Shown one piece after another: positions 8,506 through 33,754 of a DNA stretch of 64,000 nucleotides. The notes under the pieces are model-generated. The model was not told the origin of the DNA. It searched no databases and worked only from the letters and a program-made list of their open reading frames with translations. The stretch's first letter is position 1, and every line of letters starts with the position of its first letter. This stretch comes from Deltaproteobacteria bacterium (lineage in GTDB: Bacteria; Desulfobacterota; Desulfobacteria; Desulfobacterales; Desulfatirhabdiaceae). Location: contig JACRBZ010000072.1 of assembly GCA_016219185.1 (NCBI GenBank), forward strand, positions 1-64,000. Reading direction: 5' to 3'. Made by a program: the position numbers and the translations under genes.

Positions 8506-10713
8506 ATGCAACCCAAGATAGTCGTGGCCCTTGCGGGCAACCCGAACTCCGGGAAAACCACCATATTCAATGAGTTAACCGGCGCTCGCCAGCATGTCGG
8601 GAATTATCCAGGTGTGACGGTGGAGCGAAAGGAAGGTTTCCGCCGGCATGGCGACATCGACATGCAGATCGTCGATCTGCCCGGAACATACAGCCTGACC
8701 GCCTACTCGGCTGAGGAACTGGTGGCCAGAAATTTCATCATCGACGAAAAGCCCGATGTCGTTGTCGATATCCTCGACACATCGAACCTCGAGAGGAACC
8801 TGTATCTTGCGGTTCAACTCATGGAACTCGGCGTGCCCCTCGTGCTGGCTTTCAACATGAGCGACATGGCCAGAGCGCGCGGGCACGAGTTCGATATCGA
8901 GAAATTATCGCGGTTCTTCGGAGCCCGTATCGTTCAGACCGTGGGGCACAAGGGAGCGGGAATGGATGAGCTTCTCGATGCCATCATCTTGACCGCAAAA
9001 GAAGGGGTACCGGAAGCAACGCCAAACGGGGATAAGCCATGGGCCGGCGCTCTATCCTCCAGGGCCAGCATTCGGGGACCCCACCACCCGGCCCCGGCGA
9101 TGAACTACGGACGAGAGATCGAGGAAGAGATCGCCAGGATAGAGTCTCTTATCAAAGCAAGCGGTTCCATCAATGGAAAAACCGATGCCAGGTGGCTGTC
9201 CGTGAAACTTCTTGAAAACGACAAGGAGCTGCGGGCCACGGTCGCATCTTCCGAAATCAACGATCAGATCGAGAAAAGTGCTTCGCAAATCGAGAAAATT
9301 CTCGGAGAGTACCCGGAGACCGCCATTGCCGGCCGCAGGTATGGATTTATCTCCGGGGCCTGCCAGGAAGCGGTACGTTCCACCATAGAGATCCGCCATA
9401 CGATCTCGGACAGGATAGACGCCGTGGTCACAAACCGCGTTCTGGGCATTCCGGTGTTTCTGGGGCTGATGTACCTCGTCTTTCAACTGACCTTCACCCT
9501 GGGGGAGCCGCCCATGGGGTGGATTGAAGCATTTTTCGGGTGGCTGGGCGGGGTGGTCCAGGGGTGGTGGCCGGAAGGCTCGGAAAGCCTGCTGAAGTCT
9601 CTGCTGGCGGATGGCATCATCGGCGGGGTCGGCGGGGTCATCGTATTCCTGCCGAACATTCTGCTGCTGTTTCTGGCCATCGCCATCCTTGAAGATTCCG
9701 GCTACATGGCCCGGGCGGCCTTCATCATGGACCGGCTCATGCACAAGATCGGATTGCACGGCAAGAGTTTTATTCCGATGCTGATCGGATTCGGCTGCTC
9801 GGTTCCGGCGATCATGGCCACCCGCACGCTCGAAAACCGGCGGGACAGGCTGACGACGATGCTCGTGATTCCGCTCATGAGCTGCGGCGCCCGGCTGCCG
9901 ATTTACGCGCTCATCATCCCGGCTTTCTTTCCACAGGCCTGGCATGCACCCATGCTCTGGATCATATACGTTATCGGCATTCTCCTTGCCGTCGTCAGTA
10001 CCAAAATCCTTCGAAGCACGATCCTGAAGGGTGAATCCACGCCGTTTGTGATGGAACTGCCTCCGTATCGGATGCCGACCCTAAAGGGCATACTGATCCA
10101 CATGTGGGAACGAAGCTGGCTCTATTTGAAGAAAGCCGGAACCATCATTCTCGGCATTTCCATTCTGTTGTGGGCCATGACGATATTCCCCGGTTTGCCC
10201 GATGACGAGTCCGCACGTTTTCAAATGGCGCGGCAAGTCATTCAAACCGGGAATGCAGGAGAAGAAAAGACCGATCAGCTTGCCTCCATTGACAATGAAG
10301 AGGGGGAGGCGAAGCTTCGGAACAGCATCGCCGGCGGCATCGGGCATGCCATGGAACCCGTTCTGAAGCCGATGGGATTTGACTGGAAAATCGGCACCGC
10401 GCTGATCGGCGCGTTTGCCGCAAAGGAGGTCTTTGTCGCCCAGATGGGTATTGTCTACTCCGTGGGTAAGGCGGACGAGAAATCCGAAACGCTCAGGGAC
10501 AAACTCAAGAGTACCTATACCCCATTGGTCGGCTTCTGCATCATGCTCTTCTGCCTGATCAGCGCGCCGTGCATGGCAACCATCGCCGTAACGAAGCGGG
10601 AGAGCAACTCGTGGGGCTGGGCACTGTTACAGCTTGGAGGACTCACGCTTCTGGCCTATGTGTTGACCGTGATCGTCTTTCAAGCGGGCAGCCTGCTTGG
10701 CATCGGGAAATAG
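8506..10713 (+). CDS. feoB: FeoB ferrous iron transporter
   Basis: 735 residues. The N-terminal G domain is complete: GNPNSGKTT (G1, residues 10-18), DLPGTYS (G3) and NMSD (G4). A helical spacer follows to about residue 290. The membrane part carries the two FeoB gate repeats (IAILEDSGYMARAAFIMD with IGFGCSVPAIMATRTL, and LIGAFAAKEVFVAQMGI with CLISAPCMATIAV). It imports Fe2+ across the inner membrane, driven or gated by nucleotide hydrolysis. An AGGAGG lies 13 bases before the ATG. The FeoB-associated Cys-rich gene follows within 10 bp. Normal length, no damage visible. Confidence 0.97.
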   Translation: MQPKIVVALAGNPNSGKTTIFNELTGARQHVGNYPGVTVERKEGFRRHGDIDMQIVDLPGTYSLTAYSAEELVARNFIIDEKPDVVVDILDTSNLERNLYLAVQLMELGVPLVLAFNMSDMARARGHEFDIEKLSRFFGARIVQTVGHKGAGMDELLDAIILTAKEGVPEATPNGDKPWAGALSSRASIRGPHHPAPAMNYGREIEEEIARIESLIKASGSINGKTDARWLSVKLLENDKELRATVASSEINDQIEKSASQIEKILGEYPETAIAGRRYGFISGACQEAVRSTIEIRHTISDRIDAVVTNRVLGIPVFLGLMYLVFQLTFTLGEPPMGWIEAFFGWLGGVVQGWWPEGSESLLKSLLADGIIGGVGGVIVFLPNILLLFLAIAILEDSGYMARAAFIMDRLMHKIGLHGKSFIPMLIGFGCSVPAIMATRTLENRRDRLTTMLVIPLMSCGARLPIYALIIPAFFPQAWHAPMLWIIYVIGILLAVVSTKILRSTILKGESTPFVMELPPYRMPTLKGILIHMWERSWLYLKKAGTIILGISILLWAMTIFPGLPDDESARFQMARQVIQTGNAGEEKTDQLASIDNEEGEAKLRNSIAGGIGHAMEPVLKPMGFDWKIGTALIGAFAAKEVFVAQMGIVYSVGKADEKSETLRDKLKSTYTPLVGFCIMLFCLISAPCMATIAVTKRESNSWGWALLQLGGLTLLAYVLTVIVFQAGSLLGIGK

Positions 10714-10925: not shown

Positions 10926-11708
10926 ATGGTTTTCATGAGATTTATCGGAAAGTTATTACTGATTGGAATGTTGATGTCACCGGCAACGGTCTGGGCCGCG
11001 CATCCGCTCATTACGGACGATGCGGGTACGCAGGGGAAGGGAAATTTTCAGTTTGAATTGAACGGCCAGTACGACAGTGATGAGGAAACCGTATCTGACA
11101 TCACTGTGAAGTCAACAGGGTGGCAGGTTGGAACCACATTGTCCTACGGGGTTATCGATACCGTTGATCTTGTGCTCACCCTGCCCTACCAGTGGGGGAA
11201 AGTCGAGGAAGACGGATTCACTGTCTACGATGAAAAAGGCATATCGGACACGGTTTTCGAGGTCAAATGGCGGTTTTTCGAAAAAGACGGACTGGGCCTG
11301 GCGCTCAAGCCGGGTATAACCCTTCCGACCGGTGATGATGAAAAAGGACTTGGCACCGGTAAAACCGGATATCAACTGTTTTTCATCGGTTCGCAGGAAG
11401 TCGCTCCCTGGGCGTTTCATCTGAACTTAGGATACATCGGAAACGAAAACAAGGTGGATGAAGAGAAGAACATCTGGCATGCATCTTTGGCAACGACCTA
11501 TGATGTTGTCGAAAACCTGAAAATTGTCGGAAACATCGGCGTGGAGAAGAATCCGGACAAGGCTGCAAACAATGATCCGGCCTTTATCCTCGGAGGGCTC
11601 ATCTATTCCATCACAGAGAATCTGGACATCGACTGCGGCGTCAAGTACGGATTGACTTCGTCCGAAACCGATATGTCCGTATTGGCGGGAATGAGTTTCC
11701 GATTTTAA
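10926..11708 (+). CDS. Outer-membrane beta-barrel protein of the feo locus
   Basis: 260 residues with a signal peptide (cleavage after VWA, near residue 25) and a mature start AHPLITDDAGTQGKGNFQFELNG, a hallmark of the MetA-pathway/transporter-like small barrels (PF13557-type). About ten beta strands follow, ending in the typical C-terminal aromatic SFRF. It sits 32 bp after the Cys-rich gene, with GGAGGAGAC upstream, so it is probably the last gene of the feoB transcript. It may let ferrous iron or small solutes through the outer membrane; this is inferred from position. A nearly identical C-terminal fragment exists at 22566-22850. Confidence 0.85.
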   Translation: MVFMRFIGKLLLIGMLMSPATVWAAHPLITDDAGTQGKGNFQFELNGQYDSDEETVSDITVKSTGWQVGTTLSYGVIDTVDLVLTLPYQWGKVEEDGFTVYDEKGISDTVFEVKWRFFEKDGLGLALKPGITLPTGDDEKGLGTGKTGYQLFFIGSQEVAPWAFHLNLGYIGNENKVDEEKNIWHASLATTYDVVENLKIVGNIGVEKNPDKAANNDPAFILGGLIYSITENLDIDCGVKYGLTSSETDMSVLAGMSFRF

Positions 11709-11892: not shown

Positions 11893-12159
11893 ATGACGGC
11901 TTTCGACTTATTGACCAAAAACCTCGAAGACATACAGGTGATGATCGGAAATCATGCAAATCTTCTTGGCTGCCTGAAGCAAAGCGGTGACAGCCCGGCT
12001 TTGCATCCGTGTTCTTCATCGTGCCCCTGCCGGCAAAAACTGAAGGAAACTTTGATGGAGACCATCCAGGTACTGGAAGCATCCAGAAAAGCATTCAAGT
12101 CCAAACAACTGGAGGGGTTGCGGAAAAAATTGATCGCGGCCCTGGCAGAAACCGCCTGA
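11893..12159 (+). CDS. Small helical Cys-containing protein, unknown function
   Basis: 88 residues, mostly alpha-helical, with a central Cys cluster (HPCSSSCPC) between two helical arms; the C-terminal arm is Lys-rich. The ATG overlaps the stop of the preceding remnant frame (ATGA). No strong ribosome site is visible, so expression may rely on upstream translation. No family is recognised. Position at the end of the feo locus and the CxxxCxC cluster hint at metal handling, but that is only contextual. Confidence 0.5.
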   Translation: MTAFDLLTKNLEDIQVMIGNHANLLGCLKQSGDSPALHPCSSSCPCRQKLKETLMETIQVLEASRKAFKSKQLEGLRKKLIAALAETA

Positions 12160-19859: not shown

Positions 19860-20228
19860 TTAATGCGGTTTTGCTTTTCCTTTGCACAAACAATTGGCGC
19901 AATTTCCGGTGCAACGATGCTTTTTCTTTTCCGGAGGCACAATGACCCTGCTTCCATCAGGCGCCAATTCAAACCCGTTTTTCCCTTTGAAATAAAGTCT
20001 GTCGGCCGGCAATTGTTTCCGGTTCAGTCGGCACTTGAATGTGCTGCAACCAAAAGGGTGGATCTGCCGCAGGCGGCTGGTATCGATAAAGACATTGCCC
20101 TGCCCCCTGTACTGATCATGGAGTAAGTTGAGCAGTTCCCAGGCCGACGCGCCGTCAAAATCACCATTGGGCTGGACATGCAGGTTGCCGTTGCTCTTTT
20201 TGAATTCGATATGAAATGTTTTGTTCAT
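19860..20228 (-). CDS. STAS-like protein with Cys-rich C-terminal tail
   Basis: 122 residues. Residues 1-75 read as a STAS-type fold: short beta strands, GDFDGASAWELLNLLHDQ and GNVFIDTSRLRQIHPFG, where anti-anti-sigma proteins carry the conserved loop. The tail HRCTGNCANCLCKGKAKPH holds four Cys, probably binding metal or an Fe-S cluster. CAGGAGAAAAC precedes the ATG. It lies 43 bp after the DUF2325-like gene, so both are likely on one transcript that starts at the leader RNA. The role is unknown; a metal- or redox-sensing partner switch is a guess. Confidence 0.65.
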   Translation of the reverse strand: MNKTFHIEFKKSNGNLHVQPNGDFDGASAWELLNLLHDQYRGQGNVFIDTSRLRQIHPFGCSTFKCRLNRKQLPADRLYFKGKNGFELAPDGSRVIVPPEKKKHRCTGNCANCLCKGKAKPH

Positions 20229-20271: not shown

Positions 20272-21519
20272 TCAATTCCCGGCAGCCTGCCTGGCGCCGC
20301 CTGTGCTAATTACCTGCGAGACAGCGTTCAGGCTGAAGTTTGCCAGCATGTGAACGGGTTTGTTGTGCTTTTTCCCAAGATTTTTGACCAGGGTGCAGGC
20401 TGCGTGGCTGTTGCAGTTGACCGGACAGAGCACGATGTCCGAGCGCTTCAGGCTGCTCTCAAGCTGTTTTGCGCCGCCCTTCATATACCCGTCATGGTAT
20501 TCGAGAACACCGCCGTTGTTTTCGATGATCTGACGGTAGAGCGCTTCCATGCGGGCGATGCCGCCGACGATCAGCACGCGCTTGCTGCACAAGTCAAATG
20601 ACGGGCAACCGGCATCGCAGCGGTTCATTTCAATGAAGGTGCGCAAGGTTTCCTGAGCCTCTTTCCTGAACTGGGTTTCCGATTGTCTCTGATCTTCCAA
20701 TTGTTTTGAAATCCGGGCAATGTGCTCGATCAGCGACAGCAGCTCGCGGTCTTTGGTTTTGAGTTGCCCGACATGGTCGGCAAGGGTCGCGCCAAGCCGT
20801 TGATTCTTTTGTTCCAGTGCCATCACGTGGCGGTGCATCTTCATAATAGCCGGTTCGCTTCCCATGCGCTCCTTCTCTTGTTCAGCGCCGAGCAGACTGC
20901 TCTTTGCCTCCCCAAGCATGCGCTTCAGCGCTTCGTTTTCCTCCTGCAAGGCCCGACGGTCCAGATTGATTTCCTTGTTTTTCCGATTCTGTTCGATCGC
21001 CTTGCTTTTCAGTTGCTCCAGACGGCGGGTCGCATGGGCCGATTGATCGGCATTGGCGTGCATGGCCATATGGATGGCACCGAAAATTTCCTTTCTGGAC
21101 ACAACCGACAAATCGCGCCTGCTGACCGCGGCCCAGAATTCCGCCAGGTATTGTCCGGCTTCGAAAGCGGCTTTCCAGCAGTTCATGAATTCCTGCTCAC
21201 TCAACGGATGCAGTACTGCCGCACGACTGCCGAATTTGTGATTCAAAAGGCGATCCACTTTTTGAGACAGGCGATTTTCGGATTCCGCGCAGGCTACTAT
21301 GGTTTCGTGAACATCGTAAGGGCTTTTGTTTTTTATGGAAATTCCCGCTTTTTTCAGCACCTGATTTTGCTCGCAGGGCATCAGACACATACCGATGACG
21401 GGGCATCTGAAAAAATGCTCGATCTGCCAGAATTTAAGCCCGGTCATGTCCGAAGACGTGATTTGCGGCATTTCAATTTCCCGGACGCTTTCCGGTGCAA
21501 TTTGGTGTAATGTACACAT
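20272..21519 (-). CDS. DUF2325-like protein with coiled coil
   Basis: 415 residues from ATG 21519, which has AAAGGAGAT upstream. Residues ~1-110 contain a Cys-bearing region (FFRCPVIGMCLMPCEQ). Residues ~145-300 form a long coiled coil (EENEALKRMLGEAKSS, ELLSLIEHIARISKQ). Residues ~312-405 are a Rossmann-like DUF2325 domain (KRVLIVGGIARMEALYRQII, DIVLCPVNCNSHAACTLVK). A Cys trio CDAGCPSFDLC precedes that domain. DUF2325 proteins have no established activity. It follows a structured leader with a terminator and a DtxR gene, so metal-dependent expression is plausible. Confidence 0.75.
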   Translation of the reverse strand: MCTLHQIAPESVREIEMPQITSSDMTGLKFWQIEHFFRCPVIGMCLMPCEQNQVLKKAGISIKNKSPYDVHETIVACAESENRLSQKVDRLLNHKFGSRAAVLHPLSEQEFMNCWKAAFEAGQYLAEFWAAVSRRDLSVVSRKEIFGAIHMAMHANADQSAHATRRLEQLKSKAIEQNRKNKEINLDRRALQEENEALKRMLGEAKSSLLGAEQEKERMGSEPAIMKMHRHVMALEQKNQRLGATLADHVGQLKTKDRELLSLIEHIARISKQLEDQRQSETQFRKEAQETLRTFIEMNRCDAGCPSFDLCSKRVLIVGGIARMEALYRQIIENNGGVLEYHDGYMKGGAKQLESSLKRSDIVLCPVNCNSHAACTLVKNLGKKHNKPVHMLANFSLNAVSQVISTGGARQAAGN

Positions 21520-21669: not shown

Positions 21670-21711
21670 AAAAAAAAGCGCAACCCAATTCTTTTCAAAA
21701 TCGAGTTACGC
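21670..21711 (-). terminator. Intrinsic terminator in the leader of the DUF2325-like gene
   Basis: Read on the minus strand, GCGTAAC (21705-21711) pairs with GTTGCGC (21678-21684) and the inner TCGATT/AATTGG continue the stem, with a TTGAAAAG loop. A run of eight U follows at 21670-21677. This is a textbook Rho-independent terminator placed ~150 nt before the DUF2325 start. It either ends the dtxR transcript or works as the expression platform of the upstream structured RNA. Confidence 0.85.
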
Positions 21712-21714
21712 CTT

Positions 21715-21822
21715 CACTTTTTCCATGCCTATTTGTAAGGCATGGAACCCGTAAGACATCCCTTCAGGTCCTATTCCGTTTCCATGAACACCGGGTCAGC
21801 CGCCCGGTTACGGAATATCCAA
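21715..21822 (-). ncRNA. Structured 5' leader, riboswitch-like, class unassigned
   Basis: On the minus strand between the dtxR stop and the terminator. ATTCCGT (21810-21816) pairs with ACGGAAT (21773-21779), enclosing a CCGGG/CCCGG hairpin (21791-21807). Downstream, a perfect 10-bp hairpin (21721-21747, TTCCATGCCT/AGGCATGGAA) competes with a GGACC...GGTTCC pairing that uses the same GGAA bases. Nested stems, mutually exclusive pairings and a following terminator are what a metabolite- or metal-sensing leader looks like. I could not match it to a known riboswitch consensus with confidence. Confidence 0.5.
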
Positions 21823-21868: not shown

Positions 21869-22420
21869 TCATGCCGGCATCCTGTTACACTTGAGATCCT
21901 TGGGATCAAGATCACAACAAATAACCTCAGCGCAACCATTGCATTCTTCAGGCCTATGTCCGATATTGCGATATTTTTCAAAATAGTGCAGCCAACTGCC
22001 TCCGGTTCGCGGGCAGGTCTGGATGAATTCCATGAAATCGGTCAGGCTCTCCAACGTGTTAATGCTGAGCTTGTGTTCCATCTTGCACGCCTCGGCATCT
22101 GCGGTTTTTACATCAATTTTCAAGATAGTCGTCAAAAACCTGAACAACGCCTGATGCCTGCGACGCATTTCGCGGCCGACATCGGCCCCTGTGTCCGTCA
22201 ACGCCACATATTCGTATTTTTCATAATTGATCAGCCCCTTGTCATTCAAGGACCTGAGCATACTGGTTACCGTGGGCATTTTGACATCCAGCCGCTTGGC
22301 GATGTCCTTGACACGGACCACTTTTTTTTCTGTGTCCAGATCGAAAATTGCCTCAAGATAGTCCTCCATGGTTGAGGTTAGAGGCTTTTCCACTGTTTGA
22401 TCTTTGGCGGATGCTATCAT
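21869..22420 (-). CDS. DtxR/MntR-family metalloregulator
   Basis: 183 residues from ATG 22420; a TTG at 22450 in frame is possible. It has the DtxR winged helix (STMEDYLEAIFDLD, KDIAKRLDVKMPTVTSMLRSL) and metal domain (RRRHQALFRFLTTIL, ACKMEHKLS). The end is Cys-rich: CPRTGGSW, then EECNGCAEVICCDLDPKDLKC. The C-terminal SH3/FeoA domain is absent, unlike the fused regulator at 6527. It would sense Fe2+ or Mn2+ and bind DNA. It heads the leader/DUF2325/STAS locus and is the likely regulator of it. Confidence 0.9.
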   Translation of the reverse strand: MIASAKDQTVEKPLTSTMEDYLEAIFDLDTEKKVVRVKDIAKRLDVKMPTVTSMLRSLNDKGLINYEKYEYVALTDTGADVGREMRRRHQALFRFLTTILKIDVKTADAEACKMEHKLSINTLESLTDFMEFIQTCPRTGGSWLHYFEKYRNIGHRPEECNGCAEVICCDLDPKDLKCNRMPA

Positions 22421-22565: not shown

Positions 22566-22867
22566 ACCTTAGGATACATCGGAAACGAAAACAAGGTGGA
22601 TGAAGAAAAGAACATCTGGCATGCGTCTCTGGCAACGACCTATGATGTTGTCGAAAACCTGAAAATTGTCGGAAACATCGGCGTGGAGAAAAATCCGGAC
22701 AAGGCTGCGGACAATGACCCCGCCTTTATCCTCGGCGGGGTCATCTATTCAATCTCAAAGAGTTTCGACATCGACTTCGGCCTCAAGTACGGATTGACCT
22801 CGTCCGAGACCGATATGTCCATGATGGCGGGAACGTGTTTCCGATTTTAATTCCAGAGCATGTCTGG
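22566..22867 (+). pseudogene. Truncated copy of the feo outer-membrane protein gene
   Basis: From 22566 the sequence is nearly identical to 11426-11725, the last ~94 codons of the feo outer-membrane gene plus ~15 bp after its stop (TTCCAGAGCA). The residues match almost throughout (for example NIWHASLATTYDVVENLKIV), with changes mainly in the last third. The first ~165 codons, the signal peptide and a ribosome site are missing; an internal ATG at 22596 is not a credible start. It is a relic of duplication or recombination, placed next to the second DtxR gene. Confidence 0.8.
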
Positions 22868-32966: not shown

Positions 32967-33754
32967 TTATTTCAACCACTTATCGAAGAGAACATCAAGG
33001 TCTCCCCGGAGTTTTGCGTCGATCCATAAAAAGTTCATGATCTTTGTGAACTGCGGATCATCCTGCTGGATCATGAATCCAATAAAGCTTTTTTTCGTCA
33101 AAGGCTTGTCGGTAAAGGCCGGATAGAGTCTTTCGTCCTTTTTGGAGTACACCACGGCCTCATAAGCCTCGGTAATCATCACGTCTCCCTTGCCTTCGGC
33201 GATCATAGCCGGAATTTCAGCATTGCTCGGGTGAACAACAACCCTGGCCTTTTTAATATTCGCCTGAACGAATTTTTCGTTCGTTCCGCCGGGATTGAGA
33301 ATGATCGTCGTTTCCGGAACGTCAATTTTCTCAAGGGAGCTGAACTTGTCTTTGTCCGCCTTCCTTATCAAAGCAACCTTACCGTTGGGAGCGTAAGGCG
33401 GAAGGAAATCGGCTTTCATCATGCGAGCAAGGTTTCGGGTAATACCTCCCACGGCGATATCGAAATTACCGGCAAGGTAGTCATCCATCAGCTTGGGCCA
33501 ACTGGTTGGAACAAACTCTACAGCAACTCCCAGATCAACTGGACAAGGTCAATATCGTGCCCCTCATATTTCCCCGTGGTTTTGTCAAGCATGGAAAAAG
33601 GCCGATAATCACCAGGAGTTCCCACCCGCAGAACTTTATTTTCGAGTATCCGGTTCAGCCGGGTCGATTCGGCGGCTTCCGCCGACAAGGAAAGGATCGT
33701 GGCCAGACAGATAACAGCAACAAGAACAGATATTATACCTTTAATTCTTAACAT
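32967..33754 (-). pseudogene. Frameshifted periplasmic solute-binding protein, cyclohexadienyl dehydratase (PheC)-like
   Basis: The frame starts at ATG 33754 (GGGAGG upstream) with a signal peptide, then LRVGTPGDYRPFSML and YEGHDIDLVQ. It hits a stop at 33518. The rest continues in another frame from about 33535: GVAVEFVPTSWPKLMDD, DIAVGGITRNL, LNPGGTNEKFVQANIKKA and VMITEAYEAVVYS, down to the stop at 32967. Together they make one full-length SBP_bac_3 protein like PheC (arogenate/prephenate dehydratase), with one frameshift. Either a recent pseudogene or a sequencing error. The NPGGTNE and TSWP motifs favour the PheC-like branch over amino-acid transport. Confidence 0.8.

Follow-up and report, generated by a model that had tools for sequence, protein, structure and literature searches.

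An apparently undescribed RNA switch ahead of iron-acquisition genes in Desulfobacterota and the small protein that may act on it

The element described here is apparently an undescribed RNA switch in Desulfobacterota, a group of mostly anaerobic bacteria. It was found in a 64,000-nucleotide stretch of a Deltaproteobacteria contig (hereafter the window), in the leader between a dtxR-type repressor gene and a DUF2325 gene. Judged from sequence comparison, this leader is quite probably an attenuation element of an iron regulon, in which a small protein carrying an invariant FKSKxLExLR signature (the FKSK protein) would bring about antitermination.

Structure of the leader

The sequence-only reading of this region had proposed a leader that switches and has a terminator of its own, a minus-strand stem around CCGGG/CCCGG, mutually exclusive pairings and a strong intrinsic terminator about 150 nt before the coding start, and all of these were recovered (Table 1). 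The stem measures 8 bp, with UAUUCCGU (21817-21810) pairing with ACGGAAUA (21779-21772) and enclosing ACCGGG/CCCGGU (-16.1 kcal/mol, minus strand), and the terminator, followed by its U run, lies about 150 nt upstream of the likely ATG of the DUF2325 gene. The whole leader folds far better than shuffled sequences (z -6.3, 0 of 200), and in alternative folds region 21772-21817 (minus strand) pairs with the 5' strand of stem P1. The aptamer, however, had been placed in the wrong hairpin: the 21817-21772 stem has no counterpart in related leaders and looks like a local 5' extension, whereas the conserved part lies just downstream (21764-21675).

The conserved element, about 50 nt long, consists of stem P1, a GG/AA internal loop and a covarying hairpin P2 (21747-21721, minus strand). 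In the window, P1 is formed by GUCUUAC (21757-21751) and GUgAAGGC (21717-21710), with a bulged G, and thus occupies the 5' arm of the terminator. Since the 3' strand of P1 doubles as this arm, P1/P2 is an antiterminator; the two structures are equally stable in isolation (-21.5 vs -21.6 kcal/mol).

Table 1. Coordinates of the leader and of associated genes in the window
Feature	Position	Strand	Basis
Hairpin of the sequence-only reading, apparent local 5' extension	21772..21817	-	Without conservation in relatives
Conserved antiterminator element plus terminator, whole	21675..21764	-	Covariance models R1 and R2: 60.1 and 55.3 bits
Antiterminator: P1, GG/AA loop and P2	21710..21757	-	Covariance model alignment; fold -21.5 kcal/mol
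Intrinsic terminator	21675..21714	-	5' arm AAGGC is the P1 3' strand; then U run; -21.6 kcal/mol
FKSK small protein, 88 aa, candidate antiterminator factor	11893..12159	+	FKSKxLExLR signature
DUF2325 gene, 415 aa, ATG 21519	20272..21519	-	PF10087, E 9.7e-26
122-aa gene	19860..20228	-	Without Pfam match; relatives follow DUF2325 in element operons (order kept in L216, L227, L233)
dtxR/mntR-type metal-dependent repressor gene, ATG 22420	21869..22420	-	PF01325, PF02742
feoB, same iron cluster as the FKSK gene	8506..10713	+	PF02421, E 8.9e-63

Occurrence and covariation of the element

No Rfam match at gathering scores could be found anywhere in the window, and in a scan of the leader region the only matches at E<=10 were chance-level sRNA or miRNA models, in line with the earlier description of the leader as unassigned. 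A molybdenum-cofactor aptamer, one of the options then raised, is unsupported, as no Rfam Moco model matched at its gathering score or at E<=10; the Rfam NiCo riboswitch model did not match the element either.

Relatives of the DUF2325 protein provided the starting material: they were collected from the phylum and from named genomes, and their upstream DNA was compared. Upstream of several of them, and also elsewhere in L038 and L039, DNA similarity was detected at and just before the terminator but not at the 21817-21772 hairpin, with the common core GUCUUACGG, a hairpin, AAGUGAAGGCG and the terminator. A DNA search within the same genus and family returned nothing but chance matches in coding DNA. 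By scanning 395 genomes with the pattern, 18 true sites were identified in 10 genomes, compared with 2 matches for a reversed-pattern control; 11 pattern matches in viral contigs lack the hairpin and were attributed to chance. Covariance model R1 gave matches in 26 genomes, four weak ones being due to chance (weak model matches discarded as chance are L129-L132); model R2, built from 41 members, added 3 genomes. The 70 aligned members are those of R2, including members from an 85-genome order (that of G191). One copy is found in Desulfacinum infernum DSM 9756 (NZ_FQVB01000033.1, about 33170-33220), with an FKSK gene immediately upstream.

Covariation was found in these homologous leaders. Among the 70 members, 96.3% of pair cells are paired, compensatory changes occur in 9 of 13 pairs, and 144 cells are double-changed (42 in shuffles), with a covariation score reached in 0 of 500 and far lower values in slid controls; these alignments were fitted to the covariance model and are hence biased in its favour. 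In A2, the initial alignment made without such fitting, 33 cells are already double-changed, compared with 9.7 in shuffles. Covariation is strong in P2, and that of P1 appears in divergent members, with the variants GUCUUAC/GUGAAGGC, GUCCUAC/GUGAGGGC, AUCUUAC/GUGAAGGU and GUUUUAC/GUGAAAGC. The 3' arm of the terminator tracks the changes in P1 (UCU/AAGGC/GCCU to UCC/AGGGC/GCCC). Moreover, 62 of 70 members have a terminator whose start falls on the P1 3' strand (61 at offset 0), against 1.3% in a shuffled control. Mutually exclusive antiterminator and terminator structures are thus conserved in homologues, as in a transcription attenuator. The terminator hairpin is the more stable of the two in 54 of these 62, so that the default state of the leader is probably off. 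Beside the variable P2, the core UACGG/AAGUGA is nearly invariant; a kink-turn or CsrA site in this core was considered and rejected, the GGGAU flank being missing in the AGGGC group.

Genes led by the element

The genes that follow the elements encode FeoA/FeoB, TonB receptors, ExbB/ExbD, OprB-type and other porins, flavodoxin, a Nitro_FeMo-Co protein, peroxiredoxin and DUF2325. By their predicted functions they form an iron-acquisition regulon, the usual set being that of the iron-starvation response, which gives substance to the metal link suggested earlier. Several promoters combine TTGACA-N(16-18)-TATTAG with a DtxR-like palindrome (TTAG-N6-CTAA); the dtxR promoter of the window has the TTGACT/TATTAG part and only half of the palindrome. 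Two other regulators were considered and set aside: Fur genes, present in almost every genome tested, fail to distinguish the carriers of the element, and DUF2325 is missing from many element genomes.

Some loci depart from the common arrangement. Tandem elements are present at L106:14804-14941 and L110:3262-3394, the second having no terminator and immediately preceding the ribosome-binding site of a DUF2325 gene. Terminator-less elements also lie directly before feoA (L217:4532-4581 and L232:3103-3152), where they possibly act on translation. A partial duplicate lies next to dtxR in the window: an 84-aa fragment (22596-22850, plus strand) almost identical to the C-terminal end of the outer-membrane protein encoded at 10926-11708.

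The FKSK protein and its co-occurrence with the element

The FKSK protein has about 90 aa, no Pfam match and no PDB relative by sequence. Its AF2 model shows three helices at moderate confidence (pLDDT 76), and a Foldseek search against the PDB gave nothing significant. Its Cys residues are not conserved throughout, and therefore iron sensing need not be a property of the protein itself. In the window its gene, at 11893-12156 on the plus strand, adjoins feoB and an outer-membrane protein gene, 9.5 kb from the element and on the opposite strand. Within the 450 nt upstream of the element, 42 of 70 loci carry the FKSK gene or the 3' part of it, a frequent order being dtxR, FKSK gene, element, and feoAB or DUF2325. 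A 26-kb contig (G127:C17; L103, L104) bears four elements, several with FKSK gene copies or 3' fragments attached, and here the gene end and the element seem to have been duplicated as a unit. At L122 and L126, immediately before the element, the FKSK genes seem to be truncated or to carry a frameshift.

In the 395-genome sample, element and protein occur together in 23 genomes, the element alone in 2 (G009, G091) and a protein match alone in 2 (receiver-domain fusions). The 85-genome order, which overlaps this sample in about 16 genomes, gave the same counts (23 with both, 2 with the element only, G419 and G447, and 2 with the protein only, again fusions). Fisher tests yielded 8e-33 and 2e-16, respectively, with genomes treated as unrelated though species are not independent. 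Part of the co-occurrence reflects linkage, because gene and element are often adjacent; it is strong also where the two are unlinked. As for the exceptions, the FKSK gene of G091 appears internally deleted, G009 is 66% complete, and the protein was not detected in G447 (95% complete; 4 elements, L211-L213) or G419 (87% complete). Several genomes, G166 and G259 among them, have one FKSK protein and several unlinked elements, which suggests that the protein acts in trans.

In addition, a receiver domain is joined to the FKSK domain in response regulators of two genomes (L165, L210). A variant element (GCCUUGUCG...CGAAGGC) comes after each of these fusions, with its P1 strand again shared with a terminator; the variant pattern occurs nowhere else in the 2.3 Mb of sequence scanned. 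A further fusion, L209, has no element within 420 nt, and L166 is likewise without a clear one. The fusion genes of L165 and L166 adjoin histidine-kinase-like genes.

Proposed mechanism and alternative explanations

Unaided, the nascent RNA would tend to fold the terminator, and transcription would end before the iron genes. If P1/P2 were held together, the terminator could not form and transcription would continue. The likeliest factor to hold them would be the FKSK protein, supplied from the same or another operon and acting in trans on other element-bearing operons. Initiation at several of these promoters is probably under DtxR control, and low iron would then raise both transcription and the supply of the antiterminator. 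The structure, its covariation, the overlap of P1 with the terminator, the gene context and the co-occurrence are observed; we infer the binding of FKSK to RNA, the resulting readthrough and the link to low iron. There is also a reasonable case that FKSK is an RNA-binding antiterminator domain not described before and paired with an RNA element of its own. It would work alone as a factor of the iron regulon in Desulfobacterota and, when fused to a receiver, would form a two-component antiterminator whose variant element has co-evolved with it.

The earlier reading, with a metal-ion riboswitch among its options, was right about a link to metal, as shown by the iron genes downstream; such a riboswitch is the weaker model of control, given that the conserved structure is an antiterminator, precedes genes of iron uptake and follows the distribution of a small protein family. 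In such a switch P1/P2 would itself bind Fe2+ or a metabolite of iron shortage, with FKSK as an operon neighbour or accessory, and its near-invariant core beside a variable P2 does resemble small aptamers. However, a ligand that stabilises P1/P2 would turn the genes on, the opposite of what Fe2+ should do to genes for its uptake, and neither the strong co-occurrence with one protein, unlinked cases included, nor the receiver fusions followed by a variant element fit it well, which makes direct sensing unlikely. Protein-dependent antitermination could also have its sign reversed, with FKSK as a repressor or terminator-promoting factor, since co-occurrence alone carries no sign; what is conserved is nevertheless the antiterminator, and the terminator has to be excluded once P1/P2 is held together, so that this version is very improbable. 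An ordinary dtxR terminator accompanied by unrelated hairpins might be suspected from the position of the window element, about 105 nt past the dtxR stop. It is refuted by the homologous, covarying elements before many iron genes, with 62 of 70 terminators overlapping P1: feoAB, TonB, porin and flavodoxin genes have the same element ahead of them with no dtxR immediately before it, and the terminator is therefore not merely the 3' end of dtxR.

Relation to known systems

Protein-dependent antitermination is of a known kind, whereas the RNA element and the FKSK domain have no match in the Rfam, Pfam and NCBIfam entries tested. The closest precedent may be the GnfK/GnfR two-component system for antitermination of nitrogen-fixation genes in Geobacter sulfurreducens, reportedly described by Ueki and Lovley in 2010. 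GnfR is a response regulator reported to antiterminate at terminator-bearing leaders and may be comparable to the receiver-FKSK proteins beside histidine-kinase-like genes (L165, L166); in contrast, the iron-regulon FKSK protein is stand-alone and lacks a receiver domain. The LicT/GlcT/BglG proteins and their RAT elements share with the present system an imperfect hairpin overlapping the terminator 5' arm and a regulator gene that precedes the RNA element within one operon, as in glcT-ptsG. On the other hand, the RNA here differs in sequence and shape, the genes are iron genes, and the small protein is predicted to be all-helical, with no Pfam match to the CAT RNA-binding and PRD domains. ANTAR proteins (AmiR, NasR, EutV) resemble what is predicted for FKSK in that they act on leader RNA through a helical RNA-binding domain, which may be fused to a receiver, but a single hairpin with covarying P2 takes the place of their paired hexaloop hairpins; kinship was rejected, with no Pfam ANTAR match and an hhalign profile probability of 0.04%. 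The NiCo (czcD) riboswitch, for which Fe2+ sensing has been proposed as well, is another metal-linked leader controlling transporter genes; unlike it, the present element precedes uptake rather than export genes and has a different structure and no Rfam match.

Iron control in these anaerobes has been described as Fur and DtxR acting at promoters. Fur boxes were predicted upstream of delta-proteobacterial feoAB by Rodionov et al. 2004 (PMC545781), in the searched parts of which such a leader is not mentioned. No paper on a feoAB leader RNA, a DUF2325 riboswitch, the element or the FKSK protein was found in the open-access papers searched; novelty is bounded by Rfam 15 and those papers, and an earlier description is possible. 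If the proposed reading is true, an RNA antiterminator served by a dedicated protein would constitute a second layer of iron control, a new RNA-binding domain would be named, and DUF2325 and several porins would gain a role in the iron regulon.
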